Virus record (IMG/VR): IMGVR_UViG_3300000101_000013
Coordinates: 1 to 62,334 of that record
Reading direction: 5' to 3' (one strand)
Source of the DNA: a virus
DNA length: 62,334 nt
Numbering within the stretch: the stretch's first letter is position 1; every line of letters begins with the position of its first letter. A program made the translations under genes and the position numbers. Below, one piece after another: positions 2,569 to 55,092 of the stretch. Under the pieces are notes generated by a model that searched no databases, was not told the origin of the DNA, and saw only the letters and a program-made list of their open reading frames with translations.

Positions 2569-3357
2569 TCTTTTAATTGTTATTGGGCCAACCATTAATG
2601 AATGTGATGTACATTGGTATCTATAGTTAGGTGGGCTACTTAAACTTTCTTGTATTCTCCAATACAACACTCCTGAATCTTTTCCTTGAGCATTCGAACC
2701 AGTACTTACTGTGCCGTCTGTAGCTACATGTACAAGTCCGGTACTGTAAGCTGACCCTGTACTGTCCTGTATTTCGAATGGGTGACCACTAATTTGTGAT
2801 AAATCAAAAGCTACTGTAGTTCCGCTTATAACATATATAGTAGGATTGTCACCAGTATAATGACTGTTAAATGTATACGCTGAAGCACTATTATTATCAA
2901 CTCTAAAAGTTGTAATTGCTGATTCATAAAAGTTAGCAGGTGTAAGTCCTGTTGGCACATCAGTTAAATCAGTAAATGCAACAGTTCCTGCGGCACCTGT
3001 AGCATCTGTTCCGTTAACCCATTCTCCTGAACTATATTTTAAAACTTCATTGTCTTGTGGGTTTGAAACGTTTACATCACTTAGGTCATTAATTGCAGAG
3101 GCACCGCCTCCACCTCCACCACCGGATTGTGCAACCCAGTCATAGCCTGCGCCGTCCCAACTAAGTACTTCACTTGATGAAGCTGTACTTGTTTGTAAGT
3201 GGGTGTCAACGTCTGTATTAGAATAAGAGCCTCCGCCACCACCACCGCCACCTGACGTTGATTGAATTGACCAAGCTGTTCCATCCCAAGTCCATGTTAT
3301 ATTACCAACTATGTGGGTTTCGCCTATTGTTGGAGCATTTGGATAATTTATTGCCAT
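2554..3357 (-). CDS. Fibre-like structural protein with C-terminal cupredoxin-like domain
   Basis: A 267-residue modular fibre protein. The N-terminus (WTWDGTAWSIQS) and two oligoglycine linkers (about residues 36-43 and 79-85) are typical of marine phage tail-fibre proteins, as is the DLSDVNVSNPQDNEVLKYSSG repeat type. The C-terminal 110 residues look like a cupredoxin: an upstream GHPFEIQ histidine and a C-terminal YQCTSHSLM loop give His, Cys, His and Met in the order and C-x2-H-x2-M spacing of amicyanin-type type 1 copper sites. Copper binding is an inference. A gene at 10070-11578 has a related domain. The start is supported by an AAGAGAGG ribosome site and an ATAAATAC late-promoter-like box upstream. 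Confidence 0.7.
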   Translation of the reverse strand: MAINYPNAPTIGETHIVGNITWTWDGTAWSIQSTSGGGGGGGGSYSNTDVDTHLQTSTASSSEVLSWDGAGYDWVAQSGGGGGGGASAINDLSDVNVSNPQDNEVLKYSSGEWVNGTDATGAAGTVAFTDLTDVPTGLTPANFYESAITTFRVDNNSASAYTFNSHYTGDNPTIYVISGTTVAFDLSQISGHPFEIQDSTGSAYSTGLVHVATDGTVSTGSNAQGKDSGVLYWRIQESLSSPPNYRYQCTSHSLMVGPITIKRLSTL

Positions 3358-50656: not shown

Positions 50657-51133
50657 TTAAGTACGGTGTTTTAGTTTCTCTAGTACTAGTTTTTCTACAA
50701 TATAAAATGAACTAACGTATAACAGTGTGCTCAACAACGTCATATGAAAGAACGGTATTGCCGCTATATAACATGTTAATAAGCCTGCAAGAGTTAGTCC
50801 GTAGTATCCACTAGTCCATATTGCAAAGTTAGTTATAACAAAAAACAATATAGGACCCGCAAATGTTATTGATAACAGTTTAATTTTTGTTGCTAGTAGC
50901 GTACACATTATGATACTACTATAAGTCCATATCATGTAACCATGAAGTCCCCAATATATATCTGCTATAAACATAGCAAGTAATATAGCACATATTGCCG
51001 TCGGAATGTGCTTTATAATTCTTGGAGCAAAAACAGCGACAGCAATAATAGGTGTAAAATTAGGTGGGTGTGGTATAATTCTACTAAGTGCTAATACAAA
51101 TACAAATCCTAAAAACCAATATATATTATTCAT
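50657..51133 (-). CDS. DUF6580-like membrane protein, possible transport component
   Basis: A 158-residue protein with about five hydrophobic segments (IYWFLGFVFVLALSRI, AICAILLAMFIADIYWG, FAGPILFFVITNFAIW and others). NFTPIIAVAVFAPR near the N-terminus, FIADIYWGLH and VITNFAIWTSGYYGLTLAGL match the DUF6580 group of putative transporters, which I recall as often sitting next to cobalamin uptake genes in marine bacteria. It shares one base with the BtuB-like gene upstream, so they are cotranscribed. A role as a small substrate-binding (S-like) membrane subunit is a hypothesis. No partner ATPase is in the window, so it would have to work with host proteins. Confidence 0.7.
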   Translation of the reverse strand: MNNIYWFLGFVFVLALSRIIPHPPNFTPIIAVAVFAPRIIKHIPTAICAILLAMFIADIYWGLHGYMIWTYSSIIMCTLLATKIKLLSITFAGPILFFVITNFAIWTSGYYGLTLAGLLTCYIAAIPFFHMTLLSTLLYVSSFYIVEKLVLEKLKHRT

Positions 51134-52869
51134 TACATTACTATTCTAATACCAGCCTGGAAGTTTATTCCCATTTGGTTGTATCCATCTGGTTGTTCAT
51201 ACTTCTCATCTGTAATATTATATAGTCCTAGATAAAACATTTTGTTTTCATGTGTTTGATTTAATTCTAAATCAAACGTAGTTATACTACTTTTATCTAT
51301 TGTTTTAAAAGTTGAACTATCGATGTCTTTGTGGTCACCATAATAATTCATTGACGCTTTGTAATTTAGATCATCTATATTTTTAGAAATACCGGAACTG
51401 TTAGTCCAAGCAGGTCTACGTAACTTTTCATCACCGTTATTTAATTTTGCTTCTGTATAAGTTACATTAGAATCAAAAATATACCCGCTATAATCTTTAC
51501 TATAACTTACTTCAGCACCTTTGCTTGTTCCGCCGCCTGTAATATTAGTATATGTAGAATTAGCATATGTGATTGAATTAGTTTCTTCAATATAAAATAA
51601 TGCTGTATCAAAGTTGCCTATCTTATAACCTATTTCATATGAGTCAATATCTTCAGCATTTAAGTTTGGATTACCATTATATCCATAACTGTCTATACCA
51701 TACATTTCATATAATGTTGGTAATCTATAACCTTGTGAGTAACTTGCTCTTAAATGATCAAATGATATTCCTATTCTTGAACTAAGTTTGCTATCAAAAT
51801 CACTAATGCTATCATATCTACTACTAAAACTTAGAACAGTTCCTAGATAGTATTCTTTATCAACTTCAAAGAACAATCCTGAAACATATCTATTTTCTTT
51901 AACACTACTTTGATAACTGTTTATATTTGTTGCAAAGTCTGCACTTGCTTCATTGTATTCCCAACCTACGGAATAATCATATGAGTCTTTATTAAAAGTA
52001 TGCTGTGTTAAATATGTATTACTTTCACTGTTGTATTTGTCAACTACTCCGTTTTTAGTATATGTTCTATCATGTTTACTATTGTTTAGGACTACTCTTG
52101 TATTTTTGGTTTGGAAATCTATTTGGTTGTTATTCCATTCCCAATCACCTGTATAATTTAATACATCTGCTGATCCGCTATCAAGACTCATATCATTTTT
52201 GTCTTTAATTTTGTTTAGTTTAAGAATGTATTTGTTTCCTATGTAATCATAACCAATATTAAATGTATTTGCTTCATGTGGATCTTTTTCTTCACCTTGT
52301 GCGTATACACTTACACCATCTGTTGTTGTTTGATTAGCAGTAACTTTAAAATTATGTCTATCAGTTTGATCTTTATCAACTACACTTATTTCTTTGCTGA
52401 TAAGATTATTAGAGCCTATACTAACATCTATATAACTATTTCCATATGTACTTGAGTGCATATCAATAACACCGCCTGCCGCATTAGGCCCGTGTGCGTT
52501 GCTCATAGGACCCTTTATAACTGTCAAATAGTCTATTCCTATCAAGTTATGTTGACTAAAATCATCTGCTCCACTAGGTGTGCTATGGTCTTTGATTACA
52601 ATTCCGTTTAACGTAATTAAACTGTGATCGCTTTCGGTACCTCTAATAAACAAACTACTTGATTGTCCTGGAGGTCCATTTTGTACAATACTAACTCCAT
52701 TAGTCGTTTCAACTGGAGTGTCAACACCTATAATATCATATGAATATGTTCTAGTTGCTAAGTCACTTGCTGTTCTTGGAATTGTTATTGTTATTTCTAA
52801 AGGTTCGGCCAAACTTTGGCCACAAAAAAACACGGTAAGAACCGTGACTAACAATATTATTTTATTCAT
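51133..52869 (-). CDS. btuB: TonB-dependent outer-membrane receptor, BtuB-like
   Basis: A 578-residue protein with a signal peptide (hydrophobic 5-18, cleavage probably after SLA, residue 21). A TonB-box-like EITITIPR follows, then the plug domain (GVSIVQNGPPGQSSSLFIRG; SHSLITLNG-like HSLITLNGIV; IKGPMSNAHGPNAAGGVIDM) and a barrel with repeated aromatic strands. The length and plug pattern fit BtuB (614 in E. coli) better than siderophore receptors, but the ligand is not proven. A BtuB-type SYSQGYRLPTLYEMYG segment with NPNLNAEDIDSYEIGY is the usual extracellular loop region. It ends in Met rather than an aromatic residue, unusual for a barrel. It is translated with the DUF6580-like gene. A complete receptor in a phage is notable. 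Confidence 0.85.
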   Translation of the reverse strand: MNKIILLVTVLTVFFCGQSLAEPLEITITIPRTASDLATRTYSYDIIGVDTPVETTNGVSIVQNGPPGQSSSLFIRGTESDHSLITLNGIVIKDHSTPSGADDFSQHNLIGIDYLTVIKGPMSNAHGPNAAGGVIDMHSSTYGNSYIDVSIGSNNLISKEISVVDKDQTDRHNFKVTANQTTTDGVSVYAQGEEKDPHEANTFNIGYDYIGNKYILKLNKIKDKNDMSLDSGSADVLNYTGDWEWNNNQIDFQTKNTRVVLNNSKHDRTYTKNGVVDKYNSESNTYLTQHTFNKDSYDYSVGWEYNEASADFATNINSYQSSVKENRYVSGLFFEVDKEYYLGTVLSFSSRYDSISDFDSKLSSRIGISFDHLRASYSQGYRLPTLYEMYGIDSYGYNGNPNLNAEDIDSYEIGYKIGNFDTALFYIEETNSITYANSTYTNITGGGTSKGAEVSYSKDYSGYIFDSNVTYTEAKLNNGDEKLRRPAWTNSSGISKNIDDLNYKASMNYYGDHKDIDSSTFKTIDKSSITTFDLELNQTHENKMFYLGLYNITDEKYEQPDGYNQMGINFQAGIRIVM

Positions 52870-52934: not shown

Positions 52935-53151
52935 ATAAGCAAAATAGGTAGGACTTGGGTACACCTACAAGCACGGACCGAAATACCATTTCTAAACCGT
53001 ACAACCTGTCCCCGCGGGTTAGTGCGATGTGACTCAGCGTATTTCTACTACCAAGCCTGGGTACCACCCCTGGACAGTCAAGTTCGACTCTTTTGGTAGG
53101 AGCCTCTTCCTTGCACTATAAACAAAAAGTAATTAGTTTTTTGTTGCTTAT
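52935..53151 (-). ncRNA. Candidate structured RNA with long-range pseudoknot, unassigned
   Basis: No gene covers 52870-53205; this interval holds a highly structured minus-strand RNA. An 8-base closing helix (ATAAGCAA at 53151-53144 with TTGCTTAT at 52942-52935) begins at the predicted transcription start. Inside are TAGTGC/GCACTA (53118-53113 with 53025-53020), CTACCAA/TTGGTAG (53099-53093 with 53054-53048), an AGTC/GACT hairpin (53089-53076), GTACGG/CCGTGC with an inner GAAAT/ATTTC (53002-52971) and GTAGG/CCTAC (52968-52948). CTGTCC in 53077-53072 can pair with GGACAG in 53011-53006, giving a pseudoknot. No canonical cobalamin-riboswitch core is found. It is either an independent small RNA or an unusual leader for the B12-type receptor downstream. 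Confidence 0.65.
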
Positions 53152-53157
53152 GTACTT

Positions 53158-53186
53158 AATATAACAGACTTTATTCATAAAGTCAA
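53158..53186 (-). promoter_or_regulatory. Sigma70-like promoter of the structured RNA
   Basis: Minus-strand TTGACT (53186-53181), 17-base spacer, TATATT (53163-53158). The predicted start near 53151 coincides with the first base of the RNA's closing helix. Confidence 0.65.
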
Positions 53187-53205: not shown

Positions 53206-53358
53206 TTAAATTTTTTGTAATCTAGGGTCTGTACTAAGTATGTTCTTTTCAGCTCTTGGTCTAGATAAACGATTTTCAGCCATTTTGCGTATTATTGCTT
53301 TATGTGCTAGTTCGGTTTTTCTTTTTTTGCGAGCTATTTCGAAGTCTTTGTAGTTCAT
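53206..53358 (-). CDS. 50-residue basic peptide controlled by a glutamine riboswitch
   Basis: A short gene, opening MNYKDFEIARKKRKTELAHK and ending LSTDPRLQKI; strongly basic (many Lys/Arg) and probably helical. GAGGAG lies 7 bases before the ATG. It directly follows a glutamine-riboswitch-like RNA (53386-53427). Such RNAs ('downstream-peptide' and glnA motifs) are known to precede short peptide genes in cyanobacteria and marine phages. The peptide is unknown to me. By analogy with cyanobacterial glutamine-synthetase inactivating factors, which are small, basic and helical and controlled by glutamine riboswitches, it might regulate host glutamine synthetase; this is speculation because no specific IF motif was verified. 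Confidence 0.7.
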   Translation of the reverse strand: MNYKDFEIARKKRKTELAHKAIIRKMAENRLSRPRAEKNILSTDPRLQKI

Positions 53359-53385
53359 TGACACTCTCCTCGTTAAAGTTAAGTG

Positions 53386-53427
53386 CGTTCCTTCGCTAAT
53401 GCTACTTCCGGGCTTGACGCCTGAACG
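53386..53427 (-). promoter_or_regulatory. Glutamine riboswitch (glnA / downstream-peptide class)
   Basis: On the minus strand CGTTC (53427-53423) pairs with GAACG (53390-53386) as P1. GGC/GCC forms a short second helix with GTCAA loop. CGGAAGTAGC and GCGAAGGAACG flank a small ATTA loop, which reproduces the diagnostic GGAAGUAG and CGAAGGAACG blocks (E-loop) of the glutamine riboswitch. It lies 27 bases before the start of the 50-residue gene, whose ribosome site it can control. The class is recognised by motif only. Confidence 0.8.
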
Positions 53428-53435
53428 TTGTATTA

Positions 53436-53807
53436 TTATTTAGTATCTAGAACCTGAATAAATTCATTTTCTCTATCCAAATATTTGAAGTCGATCTTTA
53501 CTGGATCAAACTTATCTAGTGCATCAAATACTATACGTGTGTCTAAATCACCACAAGTATAGACATCTAATTGGATTAATTTTGGCGATTGTTCGTCCCA
53601 TATGTGTATTGCTACGTGTGATGTTTCAATAATAGTAACACAAGTAAATCCTTTGTTACCTTCTATATCACAATACTTAACATAAGGTCCCATCATAATC
53701 TTCATACCAATGTCTCTAATTAAATTAGAAGCCCAATCAGTAATAGTTTGTTCGCATATTGGAGGATTACTTACTTCTGCTCGTACTATTAAATGTTTAT
53801 GTTTCAT
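53436..53807 (-). CDS. speD: S-adenosylmethionine decarboxylase-like pyruvoyl enzyme (SpeD type)
   Basis: SpeD decarboxylates S-adenosylmethionine for spermidine synthesis and makes its pyruvoyl cofactor by self-cleavage before a serine. This 123-residue protein matches the short bacterial class 1b: ETSHVAIHIW places Ser63 as the pyruvoyl precursor and His68, and DVYTCGD places Cys85, the proton donor. The residue before Ser63 is Thr, with Glu at 61, where T. maritima has Glu62 directly before Ser63. Several SpeD homologues decarboxylate ornithine or arginine instead, so the substrate is open. It has its own sigma70-like promoter, a weak ribosome site, and lies just after gp23's terminator. 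Such genes occur in cyanophages. Confidence 0.85.
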   Translation of the reverse strand: MKHKHLIVRAEVSNPPICEQTITDWASNLIRDIGMKIMMGPYVKYCDIEGNKGFTCVTIIETSHVAIHIWDEQSPKLIQLDVYTCGDLDTRIVFDALDKFDPVKIDFKYLDRENEFIQVLDTK

Positions 53808-53872: not shown

Positions 53873-53900
53873 AAAAAATAGGCGCCGTAGCGCCTATTTT
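53873..53900. terminator. Strong terminator after gp23
   Basis: AAAATAGGCGC and GCGCCTATTTT form an 11-base perfect stem with a TACG loop and a run of T beyond it on the minus strand. It ends the capsid transcript and is symmetrical enough to work both ways. Confidence 0.85.
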
Positions 53901-53919: not shown

Positions 53920-55092
53920 TTAGCTGAAGCTTACGTTAGCAATGCTAACACGAGCTAGATAGTCTGCTGCGTTACCTAATGAACTTGCAGTGTTGTTTAG
54001 CTCAACATATCCGTATCTAGTCATGAAACTCACAACTGGCTCGAATGATGTTGGATCTAATACAACGCCACTTGACATTAGTGGGATATATGGGCAATAG
54101 AACGCTGCTGCGTCTGATTCGCTTGATCCTTTGTAACCTACAAGTACGTCTTGTGCATCAGCAGCATATGTGTTTACATATACTTTCATTGCATTGTTTA
54201 AAGTACCAACCATTTTAGTGTTAGTTGGAGCTTCAAAAGTGCCTTCAGTTGTTCTTGCAAACGCTGAAGTTGTTGCTGATTGAAGTACTGTTAATGCAAA
54301 CGGACTCACAACTGCCCAGTTACCTGCGCCTCTACGTGTACGTTGTGCAATTTTGTTACTTGCGCGGTTGATCATAACTGCTAATGCAGCATGCTCGTCA
54401 CCTACGAAAGTAGCTGTACCTGACACACCAGCTTGATCATACTGAGTATCTGCTTCAGCTGTTCCTGCTAATGTATATAGGCTACCAAGTACTTCTTGGT
54501 CAATCTCAGCTGTAATTTCTTGAGCCAAAGCAGCCATAATTTCTGCTTCAACATCAATACCATGCTGTGATTGTGCGTCTTGTGCAGACTCAAAAGTCCA
54601 ACGAGCTGATAGCTTTCTGGATTTTGCTTCTACAGTTTGCTTCAAGATTTGAATTGACATCTTGTTACCAGCTTCACCTTCTAGTGCTGCTGTTGATGCC
54701 GCTGTTCCTGCTGTTGCACCTGAGTACGCTTCAGCAATCTTGAACGGTGATAGTGCTTCTTCACCAGCTACAGTACCGCTTGCGCCTGTACCTACTGTAT
54801 CCGAATAACGAACACGTAGCGTGTGAATTTGCCCTACTGGGCCAGTCATAGGCTGAACACCAACGATTTCATTAGCAATGACTGTTGGCATTACACGTCT
54901 GATGACGGGTAAAATAACTCTGTTAAGAGTTGCGACGTTACCGGCGGATGTTGCGCCTGCGCCTGCAGTTTCTGACAAATACTTACGTGTATTTTCCAGT
55001 GTTGCTGACATTACAGATTTCTTTGTGCCTGATAGGCCTTCAAGAAGTGCGCTCTTGGTATCCAGCCAGCGACTTTCTAATAGTTCTGACAT
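53920..55092 (-). CDS. gp23: Major capsid protein gp23
   Basis: The main shell protein of the T4-like head. At 390 residues it is shorter than T4 gp23 (521) and of the reduced size seen in some marine phages. Family stretches include LENTRKYLSETAGAG, LPVIRRVMPTVIANEIVGVQ, PMTGPVGQIHTLRVRYSD, ARWTFESAQDAQSQHGID and YVNTYAADAQDVLVGYKG. Proteolytic maturation by gp21 would follow a L-x-E motif: LSE at residues 39-41 (before TAG) and LLE at 16-18 (before GL) are candidates. It is just downstream of gp22 (10-base gap) with AAGGAG before its ATG, and is followed by a strong terminator. The assignment is firm. Confidence 0.97.
   Translation of the reverse strand: MSELLESRWLDTKSALLEGLSGTKKSVMSATLENTRKYLSETAGAGATSAGNVATLNRVILPVIRRVMPTVIANEIVGVQPMTGPVGQIHTLRVRYSDTVGTGASGTVAGEEALSPFKIAEAYSGATAGTAASTAALEGEAGNKMSIQILKQTVEAKSRKLSARWTFESAQDAQSQHGIDVEAEIMAALAQEITAEIDQEVLGSLYTLAGTAEADTQYDQAGVSGTATFVGDEHAALAVMINRASNKIAQRTRRGAGNWAVVSPFALTVLQSATTSAFARTTEGTFEAPTNTKMVGTLNNAMKVYVNTYAADAQDVLVGYKGSSESDAAAFYCPYIPLMSSGVVLDPTSFEPVVSFMTRYGYVELNNTASSLGNAADYLARVSIANVSFS

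Follow-up and report, generated by a model that had tools for sequence, protein, structure and literature searches.

Glutamine-I riboswitches in phages lead genes for small basic proteins, a possible late switch on host nitrogen assimilation

Phage glutamine riboswitches form a widespread and uniform device: a late promoter motif, the aptamer, a hairpin at the Shine-Dalgarno sequence, and a gene for a tiny basic protein. Here we describe one of these cassettes in the sequence of a marine T4-like phage, IMG/VR record IMGVR_UViG_3300000101_000013, whose analyzed stretch of 62,334 nucleotides we call the window (Table 1). We tentatively propose, at somewhat less than even confidence, that this is a late-expressed cassette that is triggered by glutamine, in which a translational ON switch would control a small protein that acts on host nitrogen assimilation; we infer both the target and the sign. 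Glutamine riboswitches have been described mainly from cyanobacteria; those seen in phages were either reported with no target gene or linked to ssrA. The riboswitch class, its presence in phages, and small riboswitch-led proteins in cyanobacteria are already known. In the open-licence literature, we did not come across any account that treats the phage riboswitches as a uniform late small-protein device, nor any of the C60-anchored hairpin, the capsid-adjacent slot, or the window's peptide family.

Table 1. Features of the cassette and its neighborhood in the window.
Feature	Coordinates	Strand	Basis
50-aa basic peptide MNYKDFEIARKKRKTELAHKAIIRKMAENRLSRPRAEKNILSTDPRLQKI, ATG start	53206..53358	-	relatives, dN/dS 0.15, no Pfam or PHROG match
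Hairpin at Shine-Dalgarno, arms CACUU (53381-53385) and GAGUG (53362-53366)	53362..53385	-	covariation, centroid fold
Shine-Dalgarno GAGGAG	53366..53371	-	direct reading
Glutamine-I (glnA-type) aptamer, P1 included	53382..53429	-	cmscan RF01739, 44.2 bits, GA 35
C60 equivalent, first nucleotide after P1 and first 5' base of hairpin	53385..53385	-	comparison with crystallised aptamer
speD-like S-adenosylmethionine decarboxylase, optional member of locus	53436..53807	-	AdoMet_dc PF02675, E 1.3e-13
T4-type late promoter motif CTAAATA, adjacent to the aptamer on its 5' side, overlaps speD stop codon	53437..53443	-	position read
Terminator-like inverted repeat between capsid gene and speD	53875..53900	.	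sequence
Major capsid protein gp23, followed by the cassette in many T4-like relatives	53920..55092	-	PF07068, E 8e-99

When we ran cmscan on the whole window, the glutamine-I riboswitch model (RF01739) matched at 44.2 bits (E = 2.2e-6), above its gathering score of 35. The GGAAGUAG and CGAAGGAACG signatures are found in this aptamer, its alignment to RF01739 includes the conserved GGAAGUA and GAAGGAACGC elements, and in its P1 helix (CGUUC/GAACG), 53423-53427 pairs with 53386-53390. These results bear out an earlier, sequence-only reading of this DNA, which had recognized a glutamine riboswitch signature with a flanking P1 and had suggested the glnA model as a check. The other model it suggested, for the Downstream-peptide or glutamine-II class (RF01704), has no match in the window, neither at the gathering threshold nor at E values of up to 5. 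The window's switch is of the glutamine-I (glnA) type, not glutamine-II, and we predict that it binds glutamine. The aptamer is directly upstream of the 50-aa ORF. The sequence also supports that reading's claims that the riboswitch would control a small basic peptide and that the phage would sense glutamine.

The 50-aa ORF is a real gene: it has relatives encoded in 290 stretches of IMG/VR, and the median dN/dS of 0.15 (113 usable pairs) indicates purifying selection. The strongly conserved part is the C-terminus ([SA]RPRAEKNILSxDPxLQxI); the N-terminal half is basic and variable. There is an in-frame GTG two codons upstream of the ATG; the ATG is common to the relatives. All of the named relatives are from Pelagibacter phages (HTVC023P, HTVC103P, HTVC104P, and Mosig). 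In loci L001-L062 and in the Mosig isolate (50 bits), the aptamer directly precedes the peptide gene. It is absent from loci L063-L080 and from HTVC023P, HTVC103P, and HTVC104P, where the peptide gene is packed among others. In several cases, these riboswitch-free copies adjoin an M15 peptidase (endolysin-like) or small membrane proteins, and in HTVC023P- and HTVC103P-type pelagiphages, they stand beside lysis-like or structural genes.

Within the data searched, this family is found only in phages. We found no homologs in 162 genomes of a SAR11 order, which includes a Pelagibacteraceae bin, and a profile of the same family does recover the window's own copy. Also, 17 pattern matches to the peptide turned up among cellular genome contigs, and none of the 17 was confirmed as a host homolog. 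The peptide had no match in Pfam or PHROGs and no meaningful match among solved structures. We considered a resemblance of its RPR motif to proline-rich antimicrobial peptides and set it aside. Its occurrence points to SAR11-like hosts. The window's capsid and portal proteins are closest to those of jumbo phages of Sinorhizobium, Pseudomonas, and Vibrio, so a SAR11-like host is a candidate for the window's own phage.

Upstream of the aptamer is a putative late promoter. The T4 late consensus is TATAAATA at -13 to -6, and in phage Aeh1 the late promoter is CTAAATA at -12 (PMC1524935). The window carries this T4-type signal, TATAAATA or CTAAATA near -12, as the CTAAATA listed in Table 1. More broadly, among the matches listed, 77 of 105 distinct leaders have a TAAATA whose first base is 11-19 nt upstream of the aptamer, versus 1.4% of control sequences (random 30-mers from the same loci). 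So, the riboswitch is probably transcribed late in infection.

On the minus strand, the genes and elements are in the order gp23, terminator-like repeat, speD-like gene, CTAAATA, aptamer, and 50-aa ORF. The sequence-only reading had pointed to speD as a nitrogen-related neighbor. The neighbor is confirmed (AdoMet_dc, E = 1.3e-13), but it is not a necessary partner, as the riboswitch directly follows the capsid gene in some relatives. Considering the loci with a capsid gene also present, the cassette is directly after that gene (within 300 nt) in 27, after speD in 25, and elsewhere in 10. Peptides of different families are found next to similar capsid proteins: the capsid protein of L144 is 90% identical to the window's, yet this locus encodes an unrelated 28-aa peptide, and L165 (89% identical) has a peptide of the window's family. 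The capsid proteins of L115 and L151 are only about 33% alike, and both loci have DUF4278-type peptides in the capsid-adjacent slot. In many T4-like phages, the gene for the major capsid protein is followed by the cassette, whichever peptide the latter contains.

To survey phage riboswitches, we scanned viral sequences with a DNA pattern for the aptamer that is blind to the downstream ORF. This gave at least 80 viral loci; these counts are a sample, and many of the loci are interrelated. Among the matches listed, the ORF behind the riboswitch is 81 aa or less in 69 of the 70 phage loci where it can be read. For cellular genomes scanned in the same way, the figure was 27/75 (Fisher p = 1e-17), and a few of those 27 small ORFs are poorly called or due to chance. 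Across both phage sets, there are at least 107 distinct peptides, all with a net positive charge, in at least six sequence clusters. The 74 distinct peptides from the scan (Melnitz included; among the matches listed) are all basic, with a median charge of +6, compared to +1 for 24 other small phage coding sequences (p = 2e-6). One of the clusters belongs to DUF4278 (Pfam, E = 8e-6), which is the N-terminal domain of IF17 (PMC6316151). Rfam confirmed the aptamer in Melnitz, in 14 other loci selected to span the clusters, and in additional loci.

A minority of the phage loci have tandem aptamers before the small-protein gene (L041, L044, L045, L049, L052, L062, L098, L101, L133, and L145). In the Prochlorococcus phage P-SSM2 (L326, 2251-2470) and the Synechococcus phage DSL-LC02 (L327, 2253-2474), an ORF of 49-50 aa lies between a weak aptamer (35.1 and 35.6 bits, respectively) and a second 3' aptamer half, with a YRG (DUF4278-like) peptide immediately following. 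These ORFs appear to be nested in or between tandem glutamine aptamers.

In most of the phage leaders, a hairpin starts exactly at the first nucleotide after P1 and ends shortly ahead of the start codon; the Shine-Dalgarno sequence is in its loop or 3' arm. In the window, the Shine-Dalgarno is in the loop and the inner end of the 3' arm. Because the stems of single leaders are often not significant relative to shuffles (p of 0.05 or less in 23/79, among the matches listed), our evidence for the hairpin is covariation. In all 61 of the 61 distinct platforms whose 3' arm ends in TG (among the matches listed), C-G and A-U form the first two pairs, and compensatory changes are seen in the three that follow (CACTC/GAGTG, CACCC/GGGTG, CATCT/AGATG, and CAATC/GATTG). 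Of 14 distinct arm pairs, 10 are fully paired, a result that none of 2000 shuffles matched. The 5' arm of the Mosig hairpin is CTCTTT and is opposite AAGGAG, which is the Shine-Dalgarno sequence itself. Of the phage small-ORF platforms, 54 of 69 (among the matches listed) have the hairpin, as do 20 of 27 cellular small-ORF platforms but just 2 of 47 cellular long-ORF platforms. The cellular small-ORF leaders with the hairpin include those of cyanobacterial IF7-type and DUF4278 genes (CGCCTC/GAGGCG, with the same layout) and of SAR86 peptides. The leaders of SAR11-type amt and glnA belong to the long-ORF class.

The position of the hairpin suggests how the switch might work. By comparison with the crystallised construct (sequence from PMC5393176), the base that opens the hairpin corresponds to C60, and the G23-C60 pair is the linchpin of the glutamine-bound aptamer (PMC11477058). 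Because C60 pairs with G23 in the bound state and also opens the hairpin, the ligand and the hairpin would compete for C60. In nearest-neighbor folding with P1 formed, the hairpin is predicted to be stable, with a value of 0.93 for its third pair; with C60 and A61 withheld, this drops to 0.71, and the predicted accessibility of the Shine-Dalgarno is almost unchanged, so the calculated energies do not demonstrate switching. For gifB and a Prochlorococcus gene, binding of glutamine to the riboswitch activates expression (PMC6316151). The window's switch is most likely an ON switch for translation of the peptide. Late in infection, transcription would start a few bases before the aptamer. When glutamine is low, the hairpin would hinder ribosome loading; when glutamine is bound, G23 would pair with C60, the outermost pair of the hairpin would be lost, and translation would rise. 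More speculatively, the peptide may bind and tune down a host protein for nitrogen assimilation, most likely glutamine synthetase or one of its partners, at a time late in infection when glutamine is no longer drained into virion proteins. It would act like a cyanobacterial inactivating factor, although unrelated to one.

The opposite direction of control seems unlikely to us, but it deserves consideration. If glutamine stabilized P1 stacked on the Shine-Dalgarno hairpin, it would repress the peptide, which would then be made under nitrogen shortage. The hairpin abuts P1 without a gap, so coaxial stacking could stabilize both, and in SAR11-type hosts, the genes behind the riboswitches include amt and glnA, which glutamine could reasonably be expected to repress. 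However, those cellular long-ORF leaders have a different platform that rarely includes the hairpin (2/47), the cyanobacterial small-protein leaders with the same layout as the phages' belong to a class reported to be ON (PMC6316151), and G23-C60 pairing competes with the hairpin. We consider it far less probable still that the peptide is a true homolog of IF7 or IF17 that was acquired from cyanobacteria. Inactivating factors are small basic proteins that inhibit glutamine synthetase (PMC6316151), and the window's peptide, at 50 aa and with a net positive charge, is likewise small and rich in basic residues; the riboswitch class is also alike. The likeness proposed in the sequence-only reading holds for size, charge, and type of control, but not for homology. 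An alignment of the peptide with inactivating factors had been proposed there as well, and a profile of the peptide family did not align to eight cyanobacterial proteins encoded by riboswitch-led ORFs found in this analysis (hhalign probability 0.05%). We take those eight, used in place of an IF7 sequence that had no match in the PDB, to be IF7-type because of their NRQxSMLxR core and the spacing of their arginines. This core is missing from the window's peptide, and searches of Pfam and PHROGs came up empty. The sequence thus contradicts homology, and the host lineage is different too. As for a decayed aptamer that happens to lie beside a spurious short ORF, the aptamer does score below most of its relatives', and the whole leader folds no better than shuffled sequences (z = -0.29). 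But the score is above the gathering cutoff, the pairing of aptamer and peptide is kept in at least 60 relatives, and the peptide is under purifying selection, so we give this reading almost no credence.

A more serious alternative, although still doubtful, is that the peptide is a general late protein for virion assembly, DNA condensation, or lysis, and that glutamine merely gauges the supply of amino acids and times its production. In many T4-like phages, the cassette immediately follows the capsid gene, the peptides are strongly basic, and riboswitch-less copies in pelagiphages precede the M15 peptidase (endolysin-like) or membrane proteins. Because the peptide family is also free of riboswitches in some pelagiphages, its action need not be tied to glutamine. 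On the other hand, unrelated families, including DUF4278, fill one slot, even beside similar capsids (90% identity for L144), which is a poor fit to a fixed structural role. Several unrelated basic proteins, one of which shares a domain with IF17, are under the same sensor, and this fits a regulatory target in nitrogen assimilation better than a fixed structural component. An action of the peptide on glutamine metabolism would be plausible.

Among known systems, the cassette is most like the glutamine-I riboswitch of gifB from Synechocystis, with a similar aptamer sequence and structure and a small basic protein downstream, and like the leaders of cyanobacterial IF7-type and DUF4278 genes, in which a Shine-Dalgarno hairpin starts at the base after P1. 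Some of the inactivating factors (IF7/IF17, or GifA/GifB) are themselves under the control of glutamine riboswitches. Unlike gifB, the window's switch is in a phage, is behind a late promoter motif instead of an NtcA-controlled promoter, and leads a protein with no detectable sequence relation to IF7 or IF17. Glutamine-II riboswitches also precede short ORFs in cyanobacteria (17-100 aa), but these are another aptamer class.

The glutamine riboswitch of the Methylophilales phage Melnitz was reported to control ssrA (PMC9004378). Melnitz is also a T4-like marine phage, with the same class of aptamer and a very similar leader. In its locus (L086), models of the tmRNA end at 2974 at the latest and the aptamer is at 2982-3030, so the aptamer is 3' of ssrA. 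Behind it come the Shine-Dalgarno GGGGAG and a basic ORF of 32 aa (3053-3151) that the record does not annotate. Unlike the published assignment, we think that the Melnitz aptamer most likely controls this ORF, not ssrA. The host of Melnitz is stated to lack glutamine synthesis (PMC9004378); if so, glutamine synthetase is excluded as the target of the Melnitz peptide.

Glutamine riboswitches have been stated to be restricted to cyanobacteria (PMC6316151), and there were earlier metagenomic reports of them beyond cyanobacteria (PMC2864571). We found glutamine-I riboswitches in 105 of 162 genomes of the SAR11 order, mostly paired, so the restriction does not hold for the genomes that are now available. 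In our cellular scan, the alphaproteobacterial riboswitches lead mainly an ammonium-transporter-like protein, glutamine synthetase, and a 468-aa protein (the first two names were assigned from sequence by eye). SAR86-type and other gammaproteobacterial genomes (L281, L282, and L218) have their own riboswitch-led proteins of 52-54 aa that end in FFPYYL, with the same hairpin layout. This family is present in 5 of 101 genomes of the SAR86-type order, and we found no relation between the SAR86 riboswitch peptides and the window's family.

Other RNA elements lie near the cassette. A manA RNA (RF01745) at 52938-53143 on the minus strand is below the cutoff (49.9 bits versus a gathering score of 55.2; E = 4.8e-11). 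It is upstream of a gene for a TonB-dependent receptor (51133-52869) and one for a DUF6580 membrane protein (50657-51133); it is unusual to find a manA RNA ahead of a TonB receptor. There is a sigma-70-like promoter at 53158-53186 (minus strand). A freshwater-2 RNA (RF02980; 50551-50625, minus strand, 53.2 bits) leads a tail-protein-like ORF that probably starts with the ATG at about 50553. In L088, the glutamine riboswitch, manA, and freshwater-2 again share a strand and come in that order; freshwater-2 is found after the cassette in L059, L060, L098, L129, L144, and L165 as well.

The phage device is often in a fixed slot in the genome with the protein swapped. We speculate, while viewing the full scenario as possible rather than likely, that glutamine-activated inhibitors of the host's glutamine synthetase have repeatedly arisen in, or been captured by, marine phages. 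These viral inactivating factors, often in one interchangeable late slot behind the capsid gene, would turn down nitrogen assimilation in SAR11, OM43, SAR86, and cyanobacteria when glutamine rises late in infection. The Pelagibacter phage Mosig, paired with HTCC1062, offers a culture system for testing these ideas. That a cassette with several unrelated basic proteins is present in many marine phages suggests that infected cells are adjusted to the level of glutamine. If the proteins do act on nitrogen assimilation, then phages of very abundant marine bacteria would hold metabolite-gated control over the flow of nitrogen during infection.
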